Source: Chitinophagaceae bacterium
Lineage (GTDB): Bacteria; Bacteroidota; Bacteroidia; Chitinophagales; REEL01
Assembly: GCA_007695095.1 (NCBI GenBank)
Contig: REEL01000125.1
Span: forward strand, 1-43,365
DNA length: 43,365 bases
Reading direction: 5' to 3'
The position numbers were made by a program, and so were the translations under genes. Shown here piece after piece: positions 4,333 through 20,801 of this stretch; positions within the stretch are counted from its first letter, which is position 1, and every line of letters begins with the position of its first letter. Under the pieces are notes generated by a model. The model did no database searches, was not told the origin of the DNA, and worked only from the letters and a program-made list of their open reading frames with translations.

Positions 4333-4677
4333 ATGGCAAACACAGCAAAGGACAGAGTAATCGTTTTGAAAAATGGCGACAATGATGACATTCGCTTAGA
4401 TTACAATCTATTAAGAAAAGCAGTTTTAACATTGAGAGCTGTTAATCACAAATTAAGAAAACAGATTATTAAATTATTAGAGGAGCATGACAGACTTACT
4501 GTTACTGAAATCTATGTAAAACTTAGGTTAGAGCAATCTGTTGCCTCTCAGCATCTGGCAATTTTAAGAAGAGCCGGTGTTGTTAGAACAGATAGAGATG
4601 GAAAATACATCCATTACTCTTTAAACAGACCTAGAATTGCAGAAGTTTCAGCATTAGTTGAAGAACTTGCTCAATAA
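4333..4677 (+). CDS. ArsR/SmtB-like winged-helix transcriptional regulator (first of a tandem pair)
   Basis: This is a 114-residue DNA-binding protein. Residues about 30-100 form an ArsR-type winged helix: LRAVNHKLRKQIIKLLEE, recognition helix LEQSVASQHLAILRRAG, then the wing DRDGKYIHYSLN. It contains no cysteine at all, so classical ArsR/SmtB thiol-metal sensing through the alpha-3N or CxC site is excluded; what it senses cannot be told. It is preceded by about 180 bp of AT-rich DNA, is monocistronic, and ends at a strong terminator. A clear paralogue, with similar recognition and wing segments, follows at 4795. The family call is solid, the function is not. Confidence 0.85.
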   Translation: MANTAKDRVIVLKNGDNDDIRLDYNLLRKAVLTLRAVNHKLRKQIIKLLEEHDRLTVTEIYVKLRLEQSVASQHLAILRRAGVVRTDRDGKYIHYSLNRPRIAEVSALVEELAQ

Positions 4678-4705
4678 TAGCAAAGCGGATTTTAAGAAAA
4701 AAAAA

Positions 4706-4731
4706 GCCGGTAGTTTCTACCGGCTTTTTTT
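4706..4731. terminator. Intrinsic terminator between the two ArsR-like genes
   Basis: GCCGGTAG (4706-4713), loop TTT, CTACCGGC (4717-4724) is a perfect 8-bp stem followed by seven T residues on the plus strand. It is preceded by nine A residues, so it would also work in the opposite direction. It ends the first regulator's transcript, so the second regulator needs its own promoter. Confidence 0.9.
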
Positions 4732-4785
4732 ATTGATAAAAACTTAAAATAATTATAAACAAAATATGCATAAGCATTGTTATTG

Positions 4786-4794
4786 TGGGAAAAT
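4786..4794 (+). promoter_or_regulatory. Operator half-site at the start of the second ArsR-like gene
   Basis: TGGGAAAAT ends directly before the ATG at 4795. The same half-site recurs downstream of this gene as part of three paired sites built on TTTTCCCA-N3-TGGGAAAA. A repressor bound here would block initiation, which suggests autoregulation (inference). Confidence 0.4.
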
Positions 4795-5121
4795 ATGTTA
4801 AAAATGACACGAGATAACAAGCACCCCAATATTCAAATAGATGCTACTAATCTTAATTATTGCTCGGATATTATGCGTGCAATATCTCATCCTCTAAGAC
4901 TCAAAATACTTAGTTTTATTGATAATGAAAAGAAAACCAACGTCAATAAAATATATAACACACTCAAGTTAGAGCAGTCTATAACATCCCAACACTTAAA
5001 AATTTTAAGAGATAATGAGTTAGTTATTTCTGAAAGAGAAGGTAAGTATATTTTTTACCGTATTAATTACGAGAAAATAATTCATGTAAATACAGTAATT
5101 AATCAATTTTACCAAAAGTAA
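4795..5121 (+). CDS. ArsR/SmtB-like winged-helix transcriptional regulator (second of the pair)
   Basis: A protein of 108 residues from ATG 4795; the alternative ATG at 4804 gives 105, and an upstream TTG at 4777 is less likely. The winged helix is clear: MRAISHPLRLKILSFIDN, recognition helix LEQSITSQHLKILRDNE, wing SEREGKYIFYRIN. Only one cysteine (NYCSD, near the N-terminus) is present, so there is no classical metal-thiolate site. It is paralogous to the preceding regulator, so the pair probably arose by tandem duplication and may respond to different cues. Operator-like sites overlap its start region and lie within 220 bp after its stop, suggesting that its own product binds here. It faces nadD across a 660-bp non-coding gap. 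Confidence 0.83.
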   Translation: MLKMTRDNKHPNIQIDATNLNYCSDIMRAISHPLRLKILSFIDNEKKTNVNKIYNTLKLEQSITSQHLKILRDNELVISEREGKYIFYRINYEKIIHVNTVINQFYQK

Positions 5122-5148
5122 AAACGAAACTATTCGTTAAAATCCACC

Positions 5149-5173
5149 ATATTTTCCCATAATGAGAAAATAT
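5149..5173. promoter_or_regulatory. Near-perfect palindromic operator-like site 1
   Basis: Twelve-base arms around a central A: ATATTTTCCCAT at 5149-5160 and ATGAGAAAATAT at 5162-5173, 11 of 12 positions complementary. The core is CCCA-N3-TGAG. It lies 28 bp after the stop of the second ArsR-like gene and shares its core with sites at 5179-5193 and 5321-5339. Confidence 0.5.
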
Positions 5174-5178
5174 TAATA

Positions 5179-5193
5179 CCAAAATGGGAAAAT
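5179..5193. promoter_or_regulatory. Operator-like site 2
   Basis: CCA, spacer AAA, then TGGGAAAAT. The right half is identical to the half-site at 4786-4794; the left half is degenerate. Its centre is about two helical turns from site 1, so dimers could bind side by side. Confidence 0.4.
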
Positions 5194-5210
5194 ACTAAAA
5201 TTATGCTTTT

Positions 5211-5233
5211 TTATTACATTACAAGTGTAATAA
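5211..5233. repeat. Inverted repeat, 8-bp arms
   Basis: TTATTACA at 5211-5218 and TGTAATAA at 5226-5233 with a 7-nt spacer; a shorter alternative pairing (TTACA/TGTAA) is nested inside. It is AT-rich with no T tract, so it is more likely a protein-binding site or extruding structure than a terminator. Confidence 0.45.
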
Positions 5234-5320
5234 CTACTCTATTAAATAGATGTCAATAAAAACTTATTGCAAAAAAGGGTAAGATTAAACTGATAGTCAG
5301 TATTTTATAAAAAATAGAAG

Positions 5321-5339
5321 TTTTCCCAAAATGGGAATT
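5321..5339. promoter_or_regulatory. Operator-like site 3
   Basis: TTTTCCCA (5321-5328), AAA, TGGGAATT (5332-5339). The inner six bases of each arm are perfectly complementary. Same architecture and spacer length as site 1. Confidence 0.5.
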
Positions 5340-5701
5340 TATTATTTTAAACCAAATTAACCTTTTATTAACACACACTATTATTATTGTATTTATTAAT
5401 TAATTAAAAACAATAGTAGTAATAGGCTCTGTGGATTTGTGGATTTATTTTTAATGTAAAATTTGCATTTTTAAGTAAGATGAATTTTTAAACGAATTAT
5501 ACACAGTTATTTATTTTAAATTTCTCTTTTAAAATATAGATTTCAATATTCTTATCCACATTTACACAATTTTCGATTGTTTATATAAAAATAAATTTTT
5601 ACCCCCTTTCTTTAGTGTTCAGACTGTTAATTTAAACAACTGTTTTTAACATTAAATAACATTTTATTTAGAAAAACCGGAATTTAACTTTATCATCTTA
5701 A

Positions 5702-5728
5702 TAATTGTGAATTAGCTTACCACAATTA
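5702..5728. repeat. Inverted repeat near the nadD end
   Basis: TAATTGTG at 5702-5709 and CACAATTA at 5721-5728, perfect 8-bp arms with an 11-nt spacer. It is 53 bp beyond the nadD stop on the minus strand. It has no T tract, so a terminator role is doubtful; a protein-binding site in the origin-like region is equally possible. Confidence 0.4.
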
Positions 5729-5781
5729 AACATTTTTTAACACTGATGTTAATAAAGAAGAAATAAAAAAAAGGGTTTTAT

Positions 5782-6354
5782 TTACCGGTATAAACTATTT
5801 TTTTCTATGTAGTTATTTACCTTGTCGGGTATAAGGTATTTAACAGATTTTTCTTCTTTAATCATGTTTCTAATTAAACTGGCTGATATGTTGAGTAGCG
5901 GGACATCGAGGATGGTAACTTTAGGATGTTTTTTCCACTCATTTAAATCAAAACCCTCTCTTCGGTAAACTAATAAATGATAGTATTTTAAGATAGTCTC
6001 ATAGTTTTTCCACTTATGGAATGAATCTAAGTTATCACCACCCATGATTAAACTAAATTCATACTTTGGAAACATTTCCGTCAGTTTAGTAAGTGTATCT
6101 ATAGTGTAAGATGGTTTTTTTAACATAAACTCTACATTACTTACAGACAATCTTTCATTATCTTCTATAGCTGTTTCGACCATTTTTAGGCGTTCGTATT
6201 CATTTAAGAGAGAAGATTTTTGTTTAAAAGGGTTTTGTGGCGTTACGACAAACCATACTTTATCTATATGACTATTTTCTACAAAATAGTTAGCGATTAT
6301 TAGATGCCCTATATGAATAGGATTAAAAGTACCAAAGAAAAGACCTACTTTCAA
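5782..6354 (-). CDS. nadD: Nicotinate-nucleotide adenylyltransferase
   Basis: NadD transfers AMP from ATP to nicotinate mononucleotide in NAD synthesis. The 190-residue product opens with the nucleotidyltransferase signature GTFNPIHIGH at residues 8-17 and has the second motif ISASLIR near residue 158, matching the family (S/T)xxxxR region. The only start compatible with this N-terminus is TTG at 6354; an in-frame stop lies at 6364-6366. That stop is the terminator of the upstream M29 peptidase gene, leaving only 9 bp between them, so translational coupling is likely. Length is normal for the family. Confidence 0.94.
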   Translation of the reverse strand: MKVGLFFGTFNPIHIGHLIIANYFVENSHIDKVWFVVTPQNPFKQKSSLLNEYERLKMVETAIEDNERLSVSNVEFMLKKPSYTIDTLTKLTEMFPKYEFSLIMGGDNLDSFHKWKNYETILKYYHLLVYRREGFDLNEWKKHPKVTILDVPLLNISASLIRNMIKEEKSVKYLIPDKVNNYIEKNSLYR

Positions 6355-7537: not shown

Positions 7538-8740
7538 TTAAAAAAATGAATCAGGATTAACCCGGTTTCCAACATAGTTCCCATCCCTTACAGGATATAA
7601 TGTTATTTCATAAAAAGAGGTTTCTTCAGACATGGGGTCATCCATTCCTATTAGTATGTTAAAGTCCGGATGATCAAAAATTTTATATACAGAGGCTTCT
7701 TTAAAACCACCTTTTATATTTTCATCGTAAACTATCTCTTCTTCACTCCAGTCTCTGCCCAAAATTACTTTTAAATAATAGCTCCCGTCAGGAATATGAC
7801 TCATTTCATAAACCGAACCTGCCTGTATATATTCATTTCTAACTATTTCTTTAGTATTGTGATCTACTAATATAACAACAGCATCCTGCCGATTACCGGT
7901 TAAAAAACGAATTCCATGTTCATTATTATAATCGAACATTCCCCGCCCATAATATTCCTCAAAAGGGTAATCTCCCGTATTTAAACGATTCATTTCATCC
8001 CACTCCGGGTGTGGACTTTCTTCAATGTTTCTGAAACTGTGAGTAGCAGATTCAAAGCCCGGAGTTTCCGGTGGGTTTAATAAGTTATATAAAACAAGTG
8101 AAAATATAGTTCCTAAAACAATAAAAACAGTTGAAAATATAAGTGTTTCCGTTTTGTCATTGAATAAAAACCTTTTATTATTTTTTTCAACAGCGTTTCC
8201 ACATTTAATAAATAAGCTGTTTGAACCAAAACGATAATTAGATTTATCAATAAAAACCGGTCCAAGAGGTAAGTAGCCTTTATTAATCGGCTTTAATTTA
8301 TAAGTAAAATAGCTGACATAAGCCATAGCACCATTTTCCAACTCAACATCTGAATTGATTTCAGGTACACCTATTATTTTAAATTGATTTATGCCGGTAA
8401 TGAAAATATTTTTCCCCGTTCCCTTTACTCTGATTTCCAGATTAAAAGACTCTTTTAACCCAACAACATTTTTATTTGTGCGAATTCTGATACTACTATT
8501 ATCATAAATAACCCTTTTTCTCTGACTTCTGAACTGATTACCAAAAAAATTACCGTTTTTGTTTTTTATCAGAATTTCATAAGCTTGTTGAATTTCTTTG
8601 AAACGATCCTGGTAATAGGGGTCATTGTTATGCCTGTCAGGATGATACTTAAGAACCAGCTGCCTGTATGCAGCTTTTATCTCTTTCTCAGTAGCCCCTT
8701 CCTTGAGCCCTAATACATTATAATAGTCTATAAATGGCAT
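7538..8740 (-). CDS. Membrane-anchored J-domain protein with a BatD-like beta domain
   Basis: A 400-residue protein. Residues 1-65 form a complete J domain (YYNVLGLKEGATEKEIKAAY, then HPD at about 34-36), which stimulates Hsp70/DnaK ATPase. Residues about 75-195 are beta-rich and resemble the BatD/oxygen-tolerance domain in rhythm: a NLEIRVKGTGKN strand, then INKGYLPLGPVFID. A single transmembrane helix follows (about 203-223, LIFSTVFIVLGTIFSLVLYN), then an acidic C-terminal domain with no family I recognise. With the J domain cytosolic, the BatD-like part would also be cytosolic and the C-terminus periplasmic. It lacks the DnaJ zinc-finger and client-binding domains, so it is not DnaJ itself. 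Start ATG 8740. Confidence 0.75.
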   Translation of the reverse strand: MPFIDYYNVLGLKEGATEKEIKAAYRQLVLKYHPDRHNNDPYYQDRFKEIQQAYEILIKNKNGNFFGNQFRSQRKRVIYDNSSIRIRTNKNVVGLKESFNLEIRVKGTGKNIFITGINQFKIIGVPEINSDVELENGAMAYVSYFTYKLKPINKGYLPLGPVFIDKSNYRFGSNSLFIKCGNAVEKNNKRFLFNDKTETLIFSTVFIVLGTIFSLVLYNLLNPPETPGFESATHSFRNIEESPHPEWDEMNRLNTGDYPFEEYYGRGMFDYNNEHGIRFLTGNRQDAVVILVDHNTKEIVRNEYIQAGSVYEMSHIPDGSYYLKVILGRDWSEEEIVYDENIKGGFKEASVYKIFDHPDFNILIGMDDPMSEETSFYEITLYPVRDGNYVGNRVNPDSFF

Positions 8741-11703: not shown

Positions 11704-12801
11704 TCAATTTAACTTTACACTTTTCTCTTCCACATGACTCAATATATAAATCAGGTAAAAAATGACGGCCAATAAAATTACTGCCACACCCTGATGAATG
11801 ACTCCCCAGCTTACCGGAATATTTCCAACGGAAAGCAAAAGAGTAATAATGCCTAAAAGAACCTGTGTTAAAGTCACAAATACTAAAACTGAGACACCCA
11901 GGCTTAAGCGTTTATCAGTAGATTTTCTAAAAACCATTACCGCAATAAAAATCACAAATGCAGTAATCAGGTATCCTAAATTTCTATGAAAAAACTGTAC
12001 TGCGGCTACCGCAAAAGTGCCTTCATACCAATGACTAAAGGATGATATAGTCCAATTTTCAGCTTGTAGGATTTCCGGAGGAATATAGGAGGAGTGCATT
12101 AATGGAAAAGTTGGATAAAAAAGTGCTGCACGCATACCTGACATTAATCCACCCAAAACAATTTGCACACTAACAGCCACCAACAAAATGATAAGTAGTT
12201 TTTTGCTTTTTTTGTAAAATCCGGACATGGGTTGCTCAATTTTTTTAAACCAAAAAGGCATACTTATCCACAGCAAATACCCAAAAGTAACTAAAGCAAG
12301 TGATAAATGCATTACCAATTTATATGGACTCACCCAGGGTTTGTCCTGAAGTCCGCTGGCAACCATTACCCAACCAAATGAAGCTACTATACCGGCTAAC
12401 ACAACCACTGTTAACAGTTGTTTCATAAGCTTGCTGTCAATCCATTTTTTATAAACAAAGAACAAAAACGGTATTATAAATACCAAGCCCATTAATCTCG
12501 CCCAGAAACGATGAATATACTCCCACCAATAAATAAACTTGAATTCACTCAGTGACATACCCTTATTTATTTGTTCATACTGAGGCGTAGACCGGTATTT
12601 TTCAAACTCTTCCACCCATTTGCTATCTGTCAAGGGGGGAATAGTACCCAGAACTATATCCCATTCAGTGATTGAAAGACCACTTCCTGTCAGACGAGTA
12701 ATTCCCCCTACGATGATTTGTATAAAAATCATAAGCACTCCGATCATTAACCAGATGCCGATAACCCTGTTGGGTCCTTTAGATTTGATATTGTTTTTCA
12801 T
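11704..12801 (-). CDS. ctaA: Heme A synthase (COX15/CtaA family)
   Basis: This inner-membrane enzyme oxidises the C8 methyl of heme O to make heme A for cytochrome oxidase. The 365-residue product has about eight transmembrane helices. Conserved features include GGITRLTGSGLSITEW near residues 32-47, EYIHRFWARLMG (about 92-103), VMHLSLAL, FFHRNLGYL and VIHQGVAVILL, which supply the four heme-binding histidines. It is longer than the B. subtilis form and resembles the COX15 type. It is divergent from glyS with a 133-bp shared intergenic region. No cox genes are adjacent. Start ATG 12801. Confidence 0.92.
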   Translation of the reverse strand: MKNNIKSKGPNRVIGIWLMIGVLMIFIQIIVGGITRLTGSGLSITEWDIVLGTIPPLTDSKWVEEFEKYRSTPQYEQINKGMSLSEFKFIYWWEYIHRFWARLMGLVFIIPFLFFVYKKWIDSKLMKQLLTVVVLAGIVASFGWVMVASGLQDKPWVSPYKLVMHLSLALVTFGYLLWISMPFWFKKIEQPMSGFYKKSKKLLIILLVAVSVQIVLGGLMSGMRAALFYPTFPLMHSSYIPPEILQAENWTISSFSHWYEGTFAVAAVQFFHRNLGYLITAFVIFIAVMVFRKSTDKRLSLGVSVLVFVTLTQVLLGIITLLLSVGNIPVSWGVIHQGVAVILLAVIFYLIYILSHVEEKSVKLN

Positions 12802-18863: not shown

Positions 18864-18880
18864 TGTTCCACGTGGAACAT
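18863..18880. other. parS-like centromere site 1
   Basis: ATGTTCCACGTGGAACAT is an 18-bp perfect palindrome. Its inner 16 bp differ from the widely conserved ParB site TGTTNCACGTGAAACA by one base and match the variant used in several proteobacteria. It begins on the last base of the ybeY stop codon. Chromosomal parS sites usually lie near the replication origin. parA/parB genes are not in the window. Confidence 0.75.
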
Positions 18881-18911: not shown

Positions 18912-18927
18912 TGTTTCACGTGAAACC
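18912..18927. other. parS-like centromere site 2
   Basis: TGTTTCACGTGAAACC matches 15 of 16 positions of the ParB-binding consensus; the core 18913-18926 is a perfect 14-bp palindrome. Its centre is 48 bp from that of site 1, and it is 11 bp before the mnmG ATG. Two such copies in a 68-bp gap are very unlikely by chance. Confidence 0.8.
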
Positions 18928-18938
18928 TTTTGAAAGTT

Positions 18939-20801
18939 ATGTTTAAAGAATATGATATAATAGTTGTTGGTGCCGGTCATGCAGGTTGTGAAGCTGCTGC
19001 GGTTTCTGCTAATATGGGTATGTCTGTTTTGTTGATTACAATGAACATGACAACAATTGCACAAATGTCTTGCAATCCGGCTATGGGTGGAATTGCAAAG
19101 GGGCAAATTGTTAGGGAAATAGATGCGCTTGGAGGTTATTCCGGAGTTGTTTCAGATAGGTCCGCTATACAGTTTAGGATGTTAAATAAGTCAAAGGGTC
19201 CGGCAATGTGGAGCCCCAGGACACAAAATGACAGATTGATGTTTGCGACTTTATGGAGAAATATGCTTGAGCAGACCCCCGGAGTCGATTTTTGGCAGGA
19301 TATGGTTTCTGAGCTTTTAATAGAAAAGGGTCACTTGGCAGGTGTGAAGACCGGAATGGGCATTGAAATTAGAAGCAAAGCTGTTGTCTTAACAAATGGC
19401 ACCTTTTTAAATGGCCTGATTCATATTGGAGAGAAGCAGTTTGGTGGAGGGCGAGCCGGTGAACGGGCATCGGAAGGTATTACAGAGCAATTAATCTCTT
19501 TAGGCTTTAAGTATGGGAGGATGAAAACGGGAACGCCTCCCAGAATAGATGGGCGTTCATTGAATTATGAAGCTATGGAAGAGCAAAAGGGGGATGATGT
19601 ACCATCCGGTTTTTCTTTTCAAAACATAGACTTGCCTAAAGAGCAGAGGAGTTGTCATATTACTTACACAAATAGCAAAGTGCATGACTGTTTGAAAGAG
19701 GGTTTTGAGTTTTCTCCCATGTTTAATGGCAGAATTAGAGGTTTGGGGCCGCGTTATTGCCCTTCTATAGAAGATAAAATTGATCGATTTGCAGATAAAG
19801 ACCAACACCAGATATTTGTTGAGCCGGAAGGGTGGGATACTGTTGAGGTTTATGTTAATGGATTTTCCACCTCACTACCAGAAGATGTGCAATATAAAGC
19901 CTTAAGAAAAATTCCCGGATTTGAGCAGGCAAAAATGTTTAGGCCGGGTTATGCTATAGAATATGATTTTTTCCCACCCACTCAGCTTAAAGATACGCTG
20001 GAAACTAAATTGGTTGAAAACCTTTATTTTGCCGGACAAATAAATGGAACGACAGGGTATGAAGAGGCGGCGTGTCAGGGGTTAATGGCAGGAATCAATG
20101 CGGTAAGGAAGGTTAGAAGTCAATCGCCTGTTGTTTTAAAAAGGTCTGAAGCATATATCGGTGTTCTTATTGATGATTTAATTAATAAGGGTACGGATGA
20201 GCCTTACAGGATGTTTACATCCAGGGCTGAATATAGGATATTGCTGCGCCAGGACAATGCAGATACCAGATTGACACCCATTGCCTATGACCTGGGAATT
20301 GTTACAAAGGAGCGTTTCGAGGCTGTTATGCAAAAATCAAAAACAATTGTTGCTATTGAAAAAATTTTAAAGACGAATAGTGTTGCTCCCCATGAAATTA
20401 ATGAATTTTTGAAAGAAATGGATTCTGCTCCAATAAATCAAAAGTTGAGATGGGAAAACATTCTTATGAGGCCACGCATTTCATTGAAAGACTTAACATT
20501 GAATTGCTCCGGTTTGAAAAATCTATTGAGTGAGTTTTCAGATAATGATTTGTCCGCTGCTGAAATTCAGTTGAAGTATAGTGGGTATATTGAGAAAGAA
20601 AGAGAGAATGCAGAAAAAATGGAAAGACTGGAAGATATTAGGCTAAATCAAAACTTTGATTATGATAAAATAAAGTCACTCTCTTTTGAGGCCAAAGAAA
20701 AACTTAAAGAAATTAAGCCATCTTCTCTGGGTCAGGCAAGTAGAATTAGTGGCGTAAACCCTTCAGATATTTCAGTTTTAATGGTGCACTTAGGGAGATA
20801 A
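18939..20801 (+). CDS. mnmG: tRNA uridine-5-carboxymethylaminomethyl modification enzyme MnmG (GidA)
   Basis: With MnmE, MnmG installs the cmnm5 group on U34 of certain tRNAs, using FAD and a folate donor. The 620-residue product starts at ATG 18939 ([23 protein letters not shown] dinucleotide-binding loop). An upstream in-frame TTG at 18930 would overlap the parS-like region and is less likely. Family landmarks are [66 protein letters not shown] and [17 protein letters not shown]. Length is normal. gidA near parS and the origin is a recurrent arrangement in bacteria. Its stop overlaps the next start by one base (TAATG). Confidence 0.97.

Follow-up and report, generated by a model that had tools for sequence, protein, structure and literature searches.

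A probable chromosomal replication origin downstream of nadD in a fragmented Chitinophagaceae genome

Introduction

What function might be served by 660 bp of AT-rich DNA that lies empty between two converging genes? The question is raised by a contig (C125) from a 3.49-Mb draft genome of 186 contigs, whose 43,365 nucleotides are referred to here as the window. The gap at 5122-5781 is 78.8% AT and is bounded by an ArsR-type gene on the plus strand, which runs to 5121, and by nadD on the minus strand, which begins at 5782. Its emptiness and its place between converging genes had been pointed out in an initial annotation of the sequence, and the gap proved to be the longest in the window, the next-longest measuring 273 bp. 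To its left lie nusA (-), rimP (-), hemW (+), tsaB (+) and two ArsR-type genes (+), and to its right nadD (-), a gene for an M29 peptidase (-) and a DnaJ-domain gene (-), followed further to the right by ybeY (+), two parS sites and mnmG (+). Neither an Rfam scan nor a tRNA scan of the window returned a match. Elsewhere in the window, the gene at 7538-8740 encodes an N-terminal DnaJ domain together with a BatD-like domain, which seems an unusual pairing.

The most probable role of the gap is that of a chromosomal replication origin (oriC), a reading to which we assign a probability of about 0.9. It builds on direct observation of the sequence elements, of their uniqueness in the genome, of their conservation in other families and of an origin-proximal neighbourhood in complete relatives. 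An oriC at this position belongs to a known class of origin and is not categorically new.

DnaA boxes in the gap

The gap had been nominated on the basis of two exact TTATNCACA boxes at 5497 and 5552 and three copies with two mismatches at 5430, 5438 and 5560. All five were recovered, the exact pair and the copy at 5560 on the plus strand and the other two on the minus strand (Table 1), as were the single exact boxes that had been reported in coding DNA at 12264 and 37793. Over the window as a whole, boxes with at most one mismatch are not enriched (57 seen vs 59 expected), and the unusual feature is the clustering of boxes in the gap rather than their number.

Genome-wide there are 168 exact TTATNCACA sites, and the 129 of these that are of the C, A or T type were listed in full. 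Among boxes of these types, the pair at 5497 and 5552, separated by 55 bp, is the tightest in the genome. Other close pairs were considered and set aside; the pairs on contigs C122 and C43 are entirely within coding DNA, and those on C64 and C155 are partly so. The initial annotation had named an equally high box density between other genes as evidence against an origin; no such density was encountered within the limits of the draft assembly. One of the features by which an oriC can be recognised is that DnaA boxes cluster in AT-rich DNA between genes, as they do in the gap.

Table 1. Features of the candidate origin region and its surroundings.
Feature	Position	Strand	Evidence or remark
Two ArsR-type regulator genes	4333..5121	+	flank the candidate origin; paired with tsaB in several families
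Candidate oriC intergenic region	5122..5781	none	flanked by converging ArsR-type gene and nadD
Palindromic repeats TTTCCCAWAATGRGAA	5150..5341 (5150-5172, 5322-5341)		related copy at 5174-5197
AT-rich run TATTTATTAATTAATTAAAA	5390..5409	none	beyond the trios; candidate duplex-unwinding stretch
Four DnaA-trios TAGTAGTAATAG	5414..5425	+	sequence, BUS detector, genome-unique pattern; definition in PMC8287927
GC-rich spacer GCTC, 4 bp	5426..5429	none	between box and trios
Trio-proximal DnaA box AAATCCACA	5430..5438	-	2 mismatches to TTATCCACA
Tandem DnaA box AAATCCACA	5438..5446	-	2 mismatches; shares one base with the box at 5430..5438
Exact DnaA box TTATACACA	5497..5505	+	sequence scan
Exact consensus DnaA box TTATCCACA	5552..5560	+	sequence scan
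Weak DnaA box ATTTACACA	5560..5568	+	2 mismatches
nadD	5782..6354	-	Pfam CTP_transf_like and alignment with relatives
parS TGTTCCACGTGGAACA	18864..18879	none	perfect palindrome
parS TGTTTCACGTGAAACC	18912..18927	none	one mismatch; upstream of mnmG
mnmG (gidA)	18930..20801	+	origin-linked in relatives (PMC12843772)

A predicted unwinding module

The strongest local feature is a run of DnaA-trios that adjoins the boxes at 5430 and 5438 and that had been missed when the sequence was first read. In its published layout, the basal unwinding system (BUS) consists of tandem DnaA boxes, a short GC-rich spacer, DnaA-trios and AT-rich DNA. One box carries at most two mismatches and the second at most four, roughly 4 bp of the spacer are GC-rich, and the boxes are accompanied by three or more trios whose central base is adenine, 3'-GAT-5' being the commonest trio next to the box (PMC8287927). 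When these rules were applied as box limits of two and four mismatches, a GC-rich spacer and a minimum of three NAN trios within 16 bp, the gap was found to carry boxes with two mismatches each, a 4-bp spacer and four trios. Read 3' to 5' from the box, the trios are GAT AAT GAT GAT, so that the 3'-GAT-5' consensus is followed, including directly beside the box. The CAA at 5411-5413 may be a fifth trio. Read on the minus strand, 5446 to 5390 consists of AAATCCACA and AAATCCACA with one base shared, GAGC, CTA TTA CTA CTA, TTG and TTTTAATTAATTAATAAATA, in that order.

In the 3.49-Mb genome the pattern ATCCACA-N0-8-YTAYTAYTA has a single location, which is the element in the gap; a reversed control of the same pattern also has one match. 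A stricter BUS detector found one match in the window and, at equal stringency, no further match across 336 kb taken from other contigs of this genome, and it produced two matches in 60 Markov copies of the window, or about 0.03 expected per 43 kb. Judged from its sequence, the assembly of boxes at 5430-5446, spacer, trios and AT-rich run is a predicted BUS-type module.

The closest parallel is the incC/BUS of the B. subtilis oriC, formed by DnaA-boxes 6 and 7 plus trios (PMC6669920, PMC8287927), which shares with the gap the tandem boxes, the 4-bp GC-rich spacer, at least four trios, 3'-GAT-5' nearest the box and AT-rich DNA beyond. Unlike their B. subtilis counterparts, the tandem boxes in the gap overlap by one base and have two mismatches each, and dnaA is not adjacent, the flanks being nadD and ArsR instead.

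We infer from these likenesses that DnaA binds, unwinds the DNA and initiates replication at the gap. By analogy with B. subtilis (PMC6669920, PMC8287927), DnaA-ATP would dock on the exact boxes at 5552 and 5497, serving as high-affinity sites, and on the tandem boxes. A DnaA filament would then grow from the tandem boxes over the single-stranded trios, stretching that strand, and the duplex would open at the trios and into the AT-rich run. Helicase loading would come next, with forks departing in both directions, and the parS pair 13 kb away would hold ParB near the new origins, where ParB would organise and segregate the duplicated origin region.

Conservation of the element 3' of nadD

The unwinding element of the window lies approximately 345 bp 3' of the nadD stop codon, on the strand of nadD. 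A footprint of the form AATNCACAGC-CTTAATRATRA is present 324-415 bp 3' of nadD, also on the strand of that gene, in six other families of the order (f5, f9, f14, f16, f20 and f22). When distinct nadD 3' flanks were scanned with a matrix, 12 of 117 passed a threshold set at the level reached by 1% of random stretches, and 11 of these 12 hits are on nadD's strand. The matrix was trained on six of the 12 passing flanks, and independent support comes from the members of f5, f14 and f20, from a second member of f9 and from the constant place and strand. The element of the window itself was missed by this relative-trained matrix because its spacer is 2 bp longer; it was found by a spacer-tolerant detector and is included in the anchored list.

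Exact boxes are also concentrated on this side of the gene. Within 1.2 kb 3' of nadD there are 29 in 139 kb, compared with 96 in 1669 kb of loci overall (about 3.6 times denser), and only four lie on the 5' side (a difference of about sevenfold), these densities including the window itself and some duplicate or overlapping loci. The sister families f16 and f22 (G043, G030, G224, G021, G035) resemble the window in the nadD neighbour, the strand, the distance and a box-GC-trio-like element, and the f16 members have further boxes in the nadD 3' gap, where two to five are exact. Unlike the window, those examined have a nadA-like gene after the gap (recognised by eye, with no family search), and their trios, CTTAATRATRA, are less canonical. 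Many nadD flanks from other lineages are without the element, and two loose regular expressions yielded only modest or mixed enrichment. No Bacteroidota oriC beside nadD came up in a literature search.

Position relative to parS, mnmG and the GC-skew switch

A parS-like pair 13 kb from the gap had been cited in favour of an origin-proximal location. Both sites are indeed there, between ybeY and mnmG, and they are the only parS sites with zero or one mismatch in the genome, so that such sites occur on this contig only. Proximity of parS centromere sites is a further feature expected of an oriC. The ybeY-parS-mnmG arrangement is kept across the order, and nadD is often close by.

Two relatives with single-contig assemblies place this neighbourhood at the switch in GC skew, which supports the oriC reading. 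In G091, which is one 3.34-Mb contig carrying nadD-ybeY-parS-mnmG, the sampled skew turns from negative to positive around the cluster, and the finely sampled cumulative minimum falls at about 638 kb, within approximately 8 kb of parS (631.4 kb; nadD is at 630 kb). In G135, whose 4.90-Mb contig covers the genome, the sign change lies within 2.2-2.45 Mb and parS is at 2.372 Mb. Seven exact DnaA boxes are packed into about 250 bp of G135 near 2.3756 Mb (L171:3637-3880), 3' of mnmG and not of nadD. A strict BUS search was negative around nadD and mnmG in G091, and it found no match in locus L254 (family f11) or in the G135 cluster of boxes. The position of the G135 cluster, together with the lack of a strict BUS near the G091 nadD, indicates that the exact site of the origin shifts within the order.

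In the window the skew is noisy, with negative values to the left, positive values from about 13 to 22 kb and a local cumulative minimum near 13 kb, not 5.4 kb. Samples from the other contigs of the 186-contig draft are too weak for ordering them. On longer contigs from relatives with the nadD element the skew is likewise weak; the minimum in G098 is at 120 kb vs 153 kb for nadD, and the cumulative skew of G021 falls to about 95 kb and is then flat.

It had been objected that gene orientation does not diverge from the gap and that dnaA is not adjacent. Both statements are true but are weak counter-evidence: dnaA is on another contig (C71), and cases are documented in which the origin is distant from dnaA, parS clusters being the better marker in gut bacteria that include Bacteroidetes (PMC10197239). 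An adjacent dnaA or other typical origin gene is common at an oriC, though not universal. The gene 13 kb from the gap is mnmG, and Ori-Finder and GC skew located the origin of a Flavobacteriaceae genome at that gene (PMC12843772). That case shares with the present one a Bacteroidota origin close to mnmG, with parS beside mnmG in the order studied here, and differs in that the box and trio module of the gap lies 13 kb from mnmG and 3' of nadD.

Alternative explanations

The G135 cluster and the local skew minimum near 13 kb both favour a rival reading, in which the boxes in the gap form a DnaA titration or regulatory site and replication starts at another point close to parS, such as next to mnmG, where the boxes of G135 are found. 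The same can be said of the count of exact boxes in the gap, which is only two and weighs against the oriC reading. However, no exact boxes are found near mnmG in the window, trios beside tandem boxes constitute an unwinding module, for which a pure titration site would have no use, and the module is kept at a fixed distance from nadD. We give this rival reading only a small chance of being correct.

Less probable still is that AT-rich words resembling DnaA boxes gathered by chance in a gap that is itself long and AT-rich. Such an accident would agree with the lack of enrichment of one-mismatch boxes over the window, with the close box pairs elsewhere in the genome and with the single match of the reversed control, but it would have to account for an element conserved across families in the same place and on the same strand, for the tightest C, A or T box pair of the genome and for a strict BUS match of which the Markov simulation expects so few. 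Sites of the parS type occur on plasmids too, and the locus might in principle be the origin of an integrated plasmid or other mobile element instead of that of the chromosome. Nothing specific favours this idea, and it is very improbable given that the flanks consist of housekeeping genes (nusA, rimP, hemW, tsaB, nadD, ybeY and mnmG) that are syntenic in other families, and that the scanned genes of the window include none recognised as encoding a replication initiator.

A possible link to ArsR

The gap also contains a palindrome, TTTCCCAWAATGRGAAWWTA, in two exact copies (5153 and 5322) with a third related copy (5174), situated between the ArsR pair and the unwinding element. No match with fewer than two mismatches exists elsewhere in the genome, and inspection of ArsR-bearing loci in relatives did not turn up this palindrome (TCCCA-TGRGA). 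Several families retain the linkage of the ArsR pair with nadD and tsaB. Because palindromes unique to the gap separate the ArsR pair from the unwinding element, and because ArsR is near the origin in several families, it can be proposed that the neighbouring ArsR-type regulator controls the origin, with initiation possibly gated by whatever signal ArsR senses. This proposal is improbable. Separately, a perfect hairpin between the two ArsR genes (AAGCCGGTAG...CTACCGGCTT, 4704-4735) is followed by a T run and is likely an intrinsic terminator.

Implications

The gap 3' of nadD, read as an oriC, locates a probable origin away from dnaA in a lineage represented in this analysis by a fragmented genome. 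Also, the footprint of the BUS module is widened to several Bacteroidota-type families, for which no published experiment was found. A box-GC-trio element 320-415 bp 3' of nadD and near parS-mnmG may offer a simple marker of the origin for related draft genomes.
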